A stretch of DNA of 64,000 nt, from the NCBI GenBank assembly GCA_025361425.1, contig JANYAH010000053.1, forward strand, positions 1-64,000, given 5' to 3'. The position numbers and the translations under genes were made by a program. Shown in pieces: positions 7,384 through 41,220 of this stretch. The notes under the pieces were generated by a model that saw only the letters and a program-made list of their open reading frames with translations, was not told the DNA's origin and made no database searches. Position 1 is the first letter of the stretch, and the number at the start of each line of letters is the position of its first letter. This stretch comes from Candidatus Solibacter sp. GTDB lineage: Bacteria; Acidobacteriota; Terriglobia; Bryobacterales; Bryobacteraceae.

Positions 7384-9249
7384 TTAGCGGGCCTCGATGG
7401 CCTCGGCAACGTCGATCGCCATTTGGTAGCGGCCGAACGGGGCGCTGAGTTGCACGCCTTGCACCATCTTACAGACTCGGGAGACCATTTCGCGCGCGAT
7501 GGCTACGCCCTCTTCGCGGGCCTTCTCGGCGTTGTCGACACGGCGCATGCGCTCCATGAACATTTCGGGCACCGGCACGCGGAGTTCGTTGACCATGAAT
7601 TCGGCGTTCCGGAAGCTGGTAAGCGGCCAGATGCCGCAGAGCACCGGAATCTTAACGTGCTCGATGCGCTTGAGGAAAACCTCCAACTGGTCGAGATCGA
7701 AGACCGGTTGCGTCACCACGTACTCCGCGCCGGCCTCCACTTTCCATTCAAAGCGGCGGATCTCCTCATCCATATTGAAAGCGCCCGGGTTGGCGCCGAC
7801 GCCGATCAACAGCGCAGTCTGGGAGCCCATGGGGTTGCCGCCGATATCGAGGCCGTGGTTGAGATTGCGCACGATGTTGACGAGGCCGATGGCGTCCACG
7901 TCGAACACGGCGGTGGCGGCCGGATAGGCGCCCATGCGCGGCGGATCGCCGGTGATGCAGATGAGGTTGCGCACGCCCAGGCTGTGCGCCCCCAGCAATT
8001 CGCTCTGGATGCCGAGGATGTTGCGGTCGCGGCAGCAGAAGTGGTTGACGGCCTCAATGCCTGCGAGTTTCTGGATCAACTGGCAGGTGACCTGCGCGCT
8101 CATGCGGGCGCTGGCGCGCGGGCCATCGGGGACGTTGATGGCGTCGATACCGTGCTCGGCGCACATTTTCGCACCGGCGATCTCGCGCGTGGCGTCTACC
8201 CCGCGCGGCGGCAGAATCTCCACGAAGGTGACGAACTGCCCGGCGGCCAACTTGGCGCCCACCTTGGATTTTTCGGCGATGGGAACCGGGGTCAAGGCTT
8301 GCGCCTTGACGGTGGGCTCTTCGACCGTGACCGCGAGGTTTTTCTGGAGCGGTTGGAGCGAGCGGGTTTCGGAGCGGATCAGCTTGATGTGGTCGGGCGT
8401 GGTGCCGCAGCAGCCGCCGATGATCTTGACGCCGGCCCAGAGCAGGCGGCGCGCGTACTGGGCCATGTACTCTGGCGAGCACAGGTACATGTTGCGGCCT
8501 TCGACGCGCATGGGCAGGCCGGCGTTGGGCATGGCGCTGAGCGGCTTGGTGGCGTACTCCATCATGCGTTCGACGGTTTCGAGCGTGGCCTTGGGGCCTA
8601 CCGAGCAATTGAGGCCGATGGCATCGACGGGCCAGGAGTTCATCTCGCGGGTGAAGGTCTCGGTATCGGTGCCGCCGGGGAGATAGCCGAAATCGTCGAT
8701 GGTCACCTGCGCGATTATGGGCACGTCGCCGCCGGAGGCTTCGTGGCCGGCCATCACGGCCTCGCGCAGTTCATCGAGGTTGCCGAAAGTTTCGAAGATG
8801 AGCAGATCGACGCCGGCTTCGAGCAAGGCATCGATTTGTTCGCGGAAGGCGGCGCGCGCTTCGGCGAAGGAGGTGGGGCCGAGCGGTTCGATGCGCACGT
8901 TGAGCGGCCCGACGGCACCGGCGACATACGCGCCGTTGGCCACCTCGCGGGCCAGGCGCACGCCCGCCAGGTTGATGGCCTTTACCTTTTCGGCATAGCC
9001 GAACGCGCCCAAACGCTGCCGGGTGGCACCGAAGGTGTTGGTTTCCAGAATCTCGGCACCGGCCTTGGCATACTCCTGATGGATCTGGCGAACGGTGTCA
9101 GGCGAGGAGAGATTGAGCTCATCGAAGCAGCGGTTGATGAACACACCGCGCGAGTAGAGCATGGTACCCATGGCGCCATCGGCGACAATCACGCGGCTGG
9201 CCAACTGGTCACGAAATTCCTGGGCGCGGGTGCTGATGGATGTAGTCAT
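7384..9249 (-). CDS. Bifunctional homocysteine S-methyltransferase / 5,10-methylenetetrahydrofolate reductase
   Basis: A 621-residue two-domain enzyme of one-carbon and methionine metabolism, like the YitJ-type fusions of Firmicutes. Residues 1-300 form the homocysteine S-methyltransferase barrel: VIVADGAMGTMLYSRG at the start, then zinc cysteines in IGLNCSVGP and GGCCGTT. Residues about 325-620 form the MetF-like barrel with FVEILPPRG, CRDRNILGIQSE and ITGDPP, which bind FAD and folate. There is no cobalamin-binding domain, so methyl transfer would not use the MetH mechanism unless a partner supplies it. The gene seems to be monocistronic or paired with the downstream YrdC gene. I saw no SAM riboswitch in the 90 bases upstream. 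Family identity is clear. Confidence 0.93.
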   Translation of the reverse strand: MTTSISTRAQEFRDQLASRVIVADGAMGTMLYSRGVFINRCFDELNLSSPDTVRQIHQEYAKAGAEILETNTFGATRQRLGAFGYAEKVKAINLAGVRLAREVANGAYVAGAVGPLNVRIEPLGPTSFAEARAAFREQIDALLEAGVDLLIFETFGNLDELREAVMAGHEASGGDVPIIAQVTIDDFGYLPGGTDTETFTREMNSWPVDAIGLNCSVGPKATLETVERMMEYATKPLSAMPNAGLPMRVEGRNMYLCSPEYMAQYARRLLWAGVKIIGGCCGTTPDHIKLIRSETRSLQPLQKNLAVTVEEPTVKAQALTPVPIAEKSKVGAKLAAGQFVTFVEILPPRGVDATREIAGAKMCAEHGIDAINVPDGPRASARMSAQVTCQLIQKLAGIEAVNHFCCRDRNILGIQSELLGAHSLGVRNLICITGDPPRMGAYPAATAVFDVDAIGLVNIVRNLNHGLDIGGNPMGSQTALLIGVGANPGAFNMDEEIRRFEWKVEAGAEYVVTQPVFDLDQLEVFLKRIEHVKIPVLCGIWPLTSFRNAEFMVNELRVPVPEMFMERMRRVDNAEKAREEGVAIAREMVSRVCKMVQGVQLSAPFGRYQMAIDVAEAIEAR

Positions 9250-24991: not shown

Positions 24992-25066
24992 GGCGTTGGG
25001 CTAGCGCGTTTGCGGCAAGCAGAATCGCGAGTATGCACTTGACCGTGAAGCGGCCAACGGAGCACG

Positions 25067-25174
25067 CACTTGCGGAGCACGCAGGGGCGCGCTTTGCCCG
25101 AAAGAGGCGCCTGAAAGGCGGCTGCAGGCAAGATTGCCCGCCCCACAAAAGCGGCAGGACTTCGGCCGCGTAGT
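25067..25174 (+). repeat. Dispersed intergenic repeat, copy A
   Basis: About 108 bases closely similar (roughly 80 percent by eye) to 41116-41220. Shared landmarks are CTTGCGGAGCACGC, CCTGAAAGGCGGCTGC, GGCAAG followed by GCCCGCC, and CACAAAA. It sits in the gap between the DHDPS-family gene and the convergent MFS gene. Confidence 0.8.
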
Positions 25175-39888: not shown

Positions 39889-40074
39889 GTGAGTACACTT
39901 CGCAACTTCTGGAACGACGATCAAGGACAGGACCTCATCGAATACACCCTGCTGATCGCGTTTGTCGCATTGGCATCGGCCGCCCTTTTCATAGGCGTCG
40001 GCGGCAGTGTCGCCGGCATCTGGACCGCTGCCAACAGCCAGCTGGCCGCCGCAAACGTGGCTGCCGGAGGCTAG
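39889..40074 (+). CDS. Flp-family type IVb pilin
   Basis: A 61-residue prepilin. The N-terminus holds a short basic leader, then the cleavage site DQG before QDLIEY (prepilin peptidase cuts after Gly; the conserved Glu and Tyr follow), and then one hydrophobic helix (TLLIAFVALASAALFIGVGG) and a small tail. Flp pilins polymerise into Tad pili for adhesion. No Tad secretion genes (tadABC, cpaBC, rcpA) are in the window, so this is an orphan or a distal copy. GTG start; weak ribosome binding site 13 bases upstream. Confidence 0.9.
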   Translation: MSTLRNFWNDDQGQDLIEYTLLIAFVALASAALFIGVGGSVAGIWTAANSQLAAANVAAGG

Positions 40075-40240
40075 CCGTAGACACCTTTCGCCGCGGAGCA
40101 GGGGCTGCCCCCGATCCGCGCAATGAACACGCTTTAATTTTCACCCCCGCATTCCAATAATTTCAGGTCAAATCCCGAGATTTTGCCTCGCGTCTCTGTC
40201 GCAACTCTCCTCAGTCTGTTGAAAACGTAGCGAACTGTGA

Positions 40241-40257
40241 TTGGGTATCTAATTGCT
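40241..40257 (+). promoter_or_regulatory. Candidate sigma-54 promoter of the PEP-CTERM gene
   Basis: TTGGGTATCTAATTGCT has GG and GC dinucleotides at exactly the -24/-12 spacing (12 bases between the first Gs), with good TTGG and TTGCT cores but a poor middle of the -24 box. It is about 50 bases upstream of the ATG. Known PEP-CTERM genes are often sigma-54 controlled through PrsK/PrsR, which makes this plausible. Confidence 0.5.
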
Positions 40258-40269
40258 CGAGGGGACAGC

Positions 40270-40288
40270 ACGACTTTCAAAGAGTCGT
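40270..40288 (+). promoter_or_regulatory. Leader stem-loop before the PEP-CTERM gene
   Basis: ACGACT and AGTCGT form a six-base-pair stem around a seven-base loop, 18 bases before the ATG and directly upstream of a GAGGAGGG ribosome binding site. It may affect translation. Small, so possibly chance. Confidence 0.3.
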
Positions 40289-40306
40289 TGTAAGAGGAGG
40301 GACTAG

Positions 40307-40996
40307 ATGAATAAACGGATTTACAGAACGGTTCTTTTTGCCCTGGCTATCAGTATCTTGCTAACGGTTCCAGCGATGGCTGACAGCTACACGGTATACG
40401 TGGGCTACGCAGACGGACTTCGTGGCTCCGGATTCTTCCCGAACCCATGGGAGGGAGATTCCGGGATCACATACATAGGTACACCCGGTGGGGGCCATGA
40501 TGCTGGTGCCATCATGATCCTGAACACCGGAGGTACCGCCATCACCGTGAGCGACATTTCGGTAAACATTAACGGAAGCGCACTTGGAGACATCTGGACA
40601 TTGCTTTTGCCGAAAACGATCGCGGCGGGCAATGCGTTGATCGTCACCGAGACGGTCCACTATAACTTCGACACCAGCGACGTTCACGTCATCACCAATT
40701 CCGGCTCACCCTGTTTGGGTTTGGTAACCGACTCGGTCACCTGTAAGACGGTTTTCCCAACGGTAAAGGTGACGACTGTTGCCGGCGCCTTAACTTTCAA
40801 TGACACGGGCCACGTGCTGGACACCGAGGGTTTCGACTTTGCCGCGGTTGGAAACGAGTCCTTCGCGTGGCGGCCGATCGGGAGTCTTGGTGGTCCGGCA
40901 GGTGGCAACGTTCCGGAACCCGCATCGCTGGTTCTGCTGGCCAGCGTGGCCGGCTTTATCGAAATCGCGCGGCGCCGCAAGCTAAGCCGTCAGTAA
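40307..40996 (+). CDS. PEP-CTERM sorting-domain exported protein
   Basis: A 229-residue exported protein. Residues 1-25 are a signal peptide (ISILLTVPAMA). The middle (about 27-195) is a beta-rich domain with no family I know. The C-terminus is a textbook PEP-CTERM signal: VPEPASLVLLASVAGFI, a hydrophobic helix, then the basic ARRRK. Exosortase cleaves at PEP and joins the protein to surface or exopolysaccharide material. No exosortase gene is in the window. The ATG has a strong GAGGAGGG site. Upstream is a candidate sigma-54 promoter. Two cysteines (about residues 133 and 143) may pair outside the cell. Confidence 0.9.
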   Translation: MNKRIYRTVLFALAISILLTVPAMADSYTVYVGYADGLRGSGFFPNPWEGDSGITYIGTPGGGHDAGAIMILNTGGTAITVSDISVNINGSALGDIWTLLLPKTIAAGNALIVTETVHYNFDTSDVHVITNSGSPCLGLVTDSVTCKTVFPTVKVTTVAGALTFNDTGHVLDTEGFDFAAVGNESFAWRPIGSLGGPAGGNVPEPASLVLLASVAGFIEIARRRKLSRQ

Positions 40997-41064
40997 GTAC
41001 CACGCCCGGCACTTGCCTTCCGGGCAAAACACGAGGGCGGCCCGTGCCGCATGGTTTTCTCTCG

Positions 41065-41090
41065 CAGGCCGCCCTTCATTGGGCGGCCTG
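41065..41090 (+). terminator. Terminator-like hairpin after the PEP-CTERM gene
   Basis: CAGGCCGCCC, loop TTCATT, GGGCGGCCTG form a perfect 10-base-pair stem 69 bases downstream of the PEP-CTERM stop. It is followed by CTCTATTTC, with only a weak T-run. Confidence 0.55.
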
Positions 41091-41115
41091 CTCTATTTCA
41101 CGAGATCTCGGCAGC

Positions 41116-41220
41116 CACTTGCGGAGCACGCGGGCGGGCGCTCCGCTCGAAAAAGCCTCCTGAAAGGCGGCTGCGGGCAAGGTGGCCCGCCACAAAACCG
41201 GCACGGCGTGGGCCGCACTA
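41116..41220 (+). repeat. Dispersed intergenic repeat, copy B
   Basis: Closely similar to 25067-25174, in the same strand orientation and also in an intergenic gap. In the frame starting CTTGCGGAG both copies read AEHAG-x-R then K-GGC-x-Q, perhaps just conserved base pattern. Confidence 0.8.

Follow-up and report, generated by a model that had tools for sequence, protein, structure and literature searches.

The closest described counterpart of the locus analyzed here is the PrsK/PrsR-sigma-54 system of Proteobacteria (Haft 2006, PMC1569441), where a -24/-12 motif precedes single-gene PEP-CTERM units. In the sections of that paper drawn on here, the combination of a sigma-54 motif, PrsK/PrsR, and an upstream TTTACA motif is given for Proteobacteria only, the sigma-54 motif lies at a mean of 71 nt (SD 38.5) from the start codon, most PEP-CTERM genes form single-gene units, and motifs beyond this proteobacterial class are described as still to be found. 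Another relevant case is the RpoN1-dependent pepA of Aquincola tertiaricarbonis (PMC9850573), a PEP-CTERM gene with a GG/GC -24/-12 promoter. The parts of the paper used here give it a TGGCAC element, a mapped start site, PrsK/PrsR, and a place in an EPS locus, closely 5' of a prsT-like gene.

We analyzed a 64-kb stretch of an acidobacterial genome (hereafter, the window), which lies on contig C114 and holds a PEP-CTERM gene at 40307-40996. The genome is assigned to the acidobacteria on the basis of proteins on its contigs with matches to the Solibacter C-terminal domain and to the acidobacterial VWFA family. We consider it likely, with a probability of about 0.6, that this gene is under sigma-54 control through a candidate element at 40241-40257. 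The locus resembles the system of Haft 2006 in having a -24/-12 motif before a PEP-CTERM gene that is probably a single-gene unit, and in the distance of this motif to the start codon (49 nt, against the published mean of 71, SD 38.5). It differs in the phylum, in PrsK and PrsR matches that stay below cut-off, in the lack of a TTTACA-type motif, and in elements that mostly lack TGGC; the share of PEP-CTERM genes with the motif is 8 of 139 here versus 99 of 167 there. An earlier note on this DNA had invoked a published link between PEP-CTERM genes and sigma-54. The link does exist, but in the parts of the source used here it concerns Proteobacteria with PrsK/PrsR and TTTACA; here PrsK and PrsR stay below their cut-offs, and the 300 nt upstream of the gene hold no TTTACA. 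With the Aquincola pepA, the gene shares a GG/GC -24/-12 element. Unlike pepA, it is located away from EPS and exosortase loci, and its element was read from the sequence, whereas pepA has the TGGCAC form, the mapped start, and PrsK/PrsR.

The PEP-CTERM gene and its surroundings

The features of the locus are the following (window coordinates, strand, description):

39889-40074, +, 61-aa ORF, Flp/Tad-type pilin-like by eye; upstream neighbour, probably a separate unit
40092-40120, no strand assigned, G+C-rich inverted repeat, arms of 14 nt, 86% complementary, 1 nt apart
40241-40257, +, candidate -24/-12 element TTGGGTATCTAATTGCT (TTGG-N8-TTGCT), read from the sequence, its end 49 nt 5' of the ATG
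40270-40275 and 40283-40288, +, stem-loop, perfect 6-bp inverted repeat ACGACT/AGTCGT with a 7-nt loop
40295-40300, +, Shine-Dalgarno AGGAGG, read from the sequence
40307-40996, +, gene encoding the 229-aa PEP-CTERM protein; start codon ATG (40307), last base of the stop codon 40996
40307-40381, +, predicted signal peptide MNKRIYRTVLFALAISILLTVPAMA, by eye; helix 3-18 in a low-confidence model
40910-40981, +, PEP-CTERM sorting domain (TIGR02595), residues 202-225: VPEPAS, hydrophobic helix, RRRK
41064-41091, +, terminator-like stem of 11 pairs, 3' of the PEP-CTERM gene

The 229-aa protein exceeds the cut-off of TIGR02595 (18.8 bits versus 16), is slightly below that of PF07589 (19.5 versus 20.7), and ends in the PEP motif, hydrophobic helix, and basic stretch expected of an exosortase substrate. 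The PEP-CTERM gene of the earlier note and the spaced TTGG...TTGCT before it are both confirmed. Searches of Pfam and NCBIfam gave no domain besides PEP-CTERM, in line with the lack of an assignment for the middle domain in the earlier note. Structure prediction yielded a poor model from two sequences (pLDDT 45.6) and a middling one from three (pLDDT 59.3), with hints of beta-sandwich strands. Foldseek found no match to the model at E<=0.001, and VIA-align 2 gave Z values of at most 6.7, with mixed beta-sandwich proteins as matches; judging from these models, the fold is possibly a beta sandwich. The product would be an exported surface protein, with a signal peptide, an ectodomain of about 175 residues, and a C-terminal PEP-CTERM anchor. 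Its sorting domain suggests that one of the three exosortases of the genome, encoded elsewhere, would cut it and pass it on.

The gene is probably a single-gene unit, since a 232-nt gap with an inverted repeat separates it from the pilin-like ORF and a terminator-like stem lies downstream. The pilin-like ORF itself has no match in Pfam or NCBIfam. The inverted repeat at 40092-40120, which the terminator scan did not call, may mark the end of the upstream transcript. Directly 3' of the PEP-CTERM gene lies a copy (41111-41197) of a dispersed repeat of about 70-100 nt, with further copies, 82-90% alike, at 25062-25148 and at 7706-7772 of locus L085.

A search of the genome with profiles found no exosortase on C114, as the earlier note had remarked for the vicinity of the gene. 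Yet this is ordinary, since three exosortase genes (PF09721; contigs C351, C291, and C355), each above the TIGR02602 cut-off, are encoded elsewhere, and the 23 PEP-CTERM matches above the TIGR02595 cut-off are scattered on many contigs. The same three genes rule out a genome devoid of exosortases. Contig C291 carries an XrtA-type EPS locus with EpsB_2 (462, cut-off 393), a polysaccharide deacetylase (330, cut-off 276), the exosortase, and EpsI; its PrsT-like protein scores 284.5, slightly below the cut-off of 312.2. At the head of this locus (L069, 1517-5179) stands a second PEP-CTERM gene with an exact YTGGN8TTGCW, TTGGTATATATCTTGCA at -72, followed by a small gene and then the PrsT-like TPR gene. 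It is this gene whose setting has the pepA-prsT order of Aquincola, here in an acidobacterium.

Three relatives of the 229-aa protein were found. One, 55-59% identical, lies at 2571-3248 of L013, in a contig labelled as a Burkholderiales MAG, and represents either a recent exchange or misbinning. The other two (44% and 34% identity) came from 101 genomes of the same family. There were none in a further 296 genomes sampled from the phylum, none in viral contigs, and none at E<=1e-5 in plasmids. Given so few relatives in the family (2 in 101 genomes) and none in the 296 other genomes of the phylum, the gene is patchy, a distribution that would fit an exchangeable surface protein. The two homologues with readable upstream regions, L067 and L013, lack a sigma-54-type element.

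The sigma-54-type element and the sigma-54 machinery

The element at 40241-40257 has the core of a sigma-54 promoter, with an interval of ten bases between GG and GC (YTGG-N8-TTGCW). The usual -24 of sigma-54 promoters is TGGCA, and the fuller consensus TGGCACG is not reached here: the element reads TTGGGTAT, without CACG, and is not among the matches found with up to three mismatches to the sigma-54 consensus in the window. Taken alone, the site is unremarkable. YTGGN8TTGCW occurs three times in the 64-kb window against 2.14 expected, and 37 of 100 shuffles reach three. Consensus scans taken alone show no enrichment of the fuller consensus in the window or in the genome: three-mismatch matches are rarer than chance in the former (46 versus 65), and near-consensus patterns are about as frequent as the reversed pattern in the latter (23 versus 19). 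Only when PEP-CTERM genes are compared as a class, as below, does the element gain weight. We found no convincing sigma-70 pair 5' of the gene, the best reaching 7/12 and the consensus scan returning none.

The genome encodes a single rpoN (TIGR02395, 392 bits) and many activators of the NtrC type. Sigma-54 seems to be in use, as a near-consensus element, TTGGCAGGTTTTTTGCT, lies at 530-546 of L052 (contig C115), 232 nt before an ORF that is flagellin-like by eye. The -24 of this gene has TGGCA, unlike that at 40241-40257. The Prs system was considered and rejected, since neither family reaches its cut-off in this genome, which is about 95% complete: the best PrsR match has 422.2 bits (TIGR02915 cut-off 502.6), and the best PrsK match, covering the C-terminal kinase part only, has 122.5 (TIGR02916 cut-off 300). 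The neighbourhoods of six PrsR-like regulators, read by eye, hold no EPS or PEP-CTERM locus. The 17-nt motif 1 of Haft was searched by its TTTACA end, which does not occur in the 300 nt that precede the gene.

Elements upstream of the PEP-CTERM genes of the family

We compared 139 PEP-CTERM upstream regions of 300 nt: 18 from the same genome, 115 from relatives in its family (22 genomes), and six from homologues. The 18 come from the 23 matches of the genome, after dropping L016, L026, L034, L037, and L038, whose frames were short or doubtful or lacked a PEP. For the relatives, 117 entries were chosen by hand among the matches listed, for frame length and contig room and before any motif inspection, and 115 were kept, leaving out L159 (no start) and L237 (no PEP found). 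Nine homologue loci were re-read, of which L013 (other phylum), L068 (an oversized match with an internal stop), and L101 were left out. The other-gene set has 440 upstream regions from the genome and five relatives, defined by crude longest-ORF gene calls, with 352 long enough; among the sites counted in it, one upstream of an EpsI gene falls inside a longer reading of EpsI and was kept. Elements were counted when their end fell 32-110 nt upstream of the start codon, the range of 71 +/- 38.5 in Haft 2006, with distance and spacing preset by the literature and by sigma-54 anatomy.

Within this distance range, YTGG-Nk-TTGCW occurs four times at k=8 and never at any of the 14 other spacings between 2 and 16. 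TGG-Nk-TTGC occurs eight times at k=8, versus eight in total over the 14 others; the choice of TTGC over looser -12 forms was made after seeing the site, a point that this spacing control answers only in part. In the corresponding control on other genes (n=441, one being a PEP-CTERM gene), TGG-Nk-TTGC gave six at k=8 and about three on average at the others. TGG-N8-TTGCW was found in 8 of the 139 upstream regions, compared with 0.32 and 0.29 on average in two series of 400 shuffles each (never more than 2), none in the reversed PEP-CTERM regions, and 3 of 440 other upstream regions (P=0.0026). Leaving out the 40307-40996 gene, the count is 7/138 (P=0.0067).

The eight carriers are L023, L024 (the gene studied here), L025, L102, L155, L225, L231, and L244; L155 and L244 are from the same genome and have similar-looking elements, and the assumed start codon of L225 is doubtful. 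The motif thus recurs before other PEP-CTERM genes of the genome, where the earlier note had suggested looking for it: three of the 18 have it, the 40307-40996 gene included. The base after TGG-N8-TTGC is A or T in all nine cases of the PEP-CTERM set and in four of nine in the other set. Seven of the eight elements, that at 40241-40257 among them, have no C after TGG. TGGCA forms show no enrichment, TGGCA-N7-TGC being found in 1/139 PEP-CTERM and 1/353 other regions, and the looser YTGG-N9-TGCW, at the same distance, in only 5/139 and 6/353. A first reading of the 115 relatives alone, in which the exact YTGGN8TTGCW occurs once versus 0.47 in shuffles, had placed the element at chance level, and was overturned by the spacing control. 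Shared enhancer sites were not found among five of the sigma-54-type upstream regions. Since TGG-N8-TTGCW is in excess before PEP-CTERM genes at this particular spacing and distance, it is probable that a minority of these genes in the family, among them the one at 40307-40996, have sigma-54-type promoters. The sigma-54 reading proposed earlier thus draws its strength from the class and remains weak on the single site.

The main competitor of this reading, which we consider about half as likely, is that the element is a chance match and that the gene is driven from a promoter of a different sigma factor that escaped recognition. The window count (3 sites against 2.14), the missing TGGC, and the lack of conservation in L067 and L013 all speak for chance, and L067 has by eye a TTGACA-like and CATACT-like pair instead; in this family TTGAC is also frequent upstream of PEP-CTERM genes, for the most part at 60-120 nt from the start. 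However, the excess of the element in the class at one spacing and distance argues against chance, and the best sigma-70 pair upstream of the gene is the 7/12 match mentioned above. It is rather unlikely that the enriched TGG-N8-TTGCW is real and yet the site of something other than the sigma-54 RNA polymerase. The absence of the usual TGGC in seven of eight elements and the lack of enrichment of TGGCA forms would fit such a site, but the ten-base interval between the core GG and GC, the A or T after TTGC in nine of nine cases, and a position before the start codon that matches the sigma-54 PEP-CTERM promoters in the published data used here argue for sigma-54.

The stem-loop at 40270-40288 is indeed present before the ribosome binding site (AGGAGG, 40295-40300), as the earlier note had it, and the same note saw in it a possible translational layer. 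It would sit only a few bases from the putative transcription start, and a 28-nt stretch trimmed closely around it folds better than shuffles (z -2.97). However, the fold of the 66-nt leader is close to that of its shuffles (z -0.69), and perfect 6-bp stems are as common in other leaders of the genome (14/218) and before the PEP-CTERM genes of the relatives (7/115), with 2/18 before those of the genome itself. Shuffling produces such a stem in 2.45% of cases for the 49-nt leader but in 25.6% for the complete intergenic region. Furthermore, AGGAGG falls outside the stem, and the leader RNA has no Rfam match up to E=1. Given the leader fold and the equally common stems elsewhere, the stem-loop is ordinary and a regulatory role is without support; that it governs translation or mRNA stability is very improbable.

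Under sigma-54 control, transcription would most likely start some 10-12 nt past TTGG-N8-TTGCT, and the stem-loop would form the extreme 5' end of the transcript. The single RpoN would read the element with the help of an NtrC-type activator, and the element would belong to the minority class of sigma-54-type promoters before the PEP-CTERM genes of this acidobacterial family. If this is true, sigma-54 control of exosortase substrates is neither confined to Proteobacteria nor dependent on PrsK/PrsR, and another activator must exist.

A second upstream signal

An open word count on 133 PEP-CTERM upstream regions ranked the palindrome AGTACT first (39 regions versus 4.9 in shuffles), and it again came first in each of ten runs leaving one genome out. 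Across five genomes compared with control regions from the same genomes, it was found in 22/50 PEP-CTERM and 9/216 other upstream regions (P about 8e-12), with an excess in each genome (P from 0.0004 to 0.015); the control regions are often shorter than 300 nt, and 2 of the 74 full-length ones have AGTACT. The signal is weak in the genome studied here (3/18 PEP-CTERM versus 7/224 other, P 0.03) and is found in 0/9 regions of the relative G307. The 300 nt upstream of the 40307-40996 gene have no GTAC, hence no AGTACT, and the palindrome is found in none of the eight genes with the sigma-54-type element versus 41 of all 139. Judging from these upstream sequences, AGTACT is the commoner PEP-CTERM signal of the two in this family.

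The titles and abstract openings listed by literature searches gave no account of an AGTACT-type element. In the part of the work used here, the cyanobacterial LexA boxes RGTACNNNDGTWCB (PMC3091678) share the GTAC core with the AGTACT sites, at times as a pair with a four-base gap; unlike these boxes, most AGTACT sites have no fixed second half, and only seven LexA-like boxes occur in the 133 upstream regions. We give even odds to the proposal that the PEP-CTERM proteins of the family are under two cis-codes, a minority using sigma-54 without PrsK/PrsR and a larger part using a putative regulator that would bind clustered AGTACT palindromes about 60-140 nt before the start. If so, a palindromic signal that marks PEP-CTERM genes offers a route to the regulator of surface and matrix proteins. 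The AGTACT sites, with their GTAC core, concentrate at some 60-140 nt from the start codon, in many cases close to TTGAC, and are often present in several copies, e.g., among L133-L249 in the relatives and in L021, L028, and L036 of the genome studied here.
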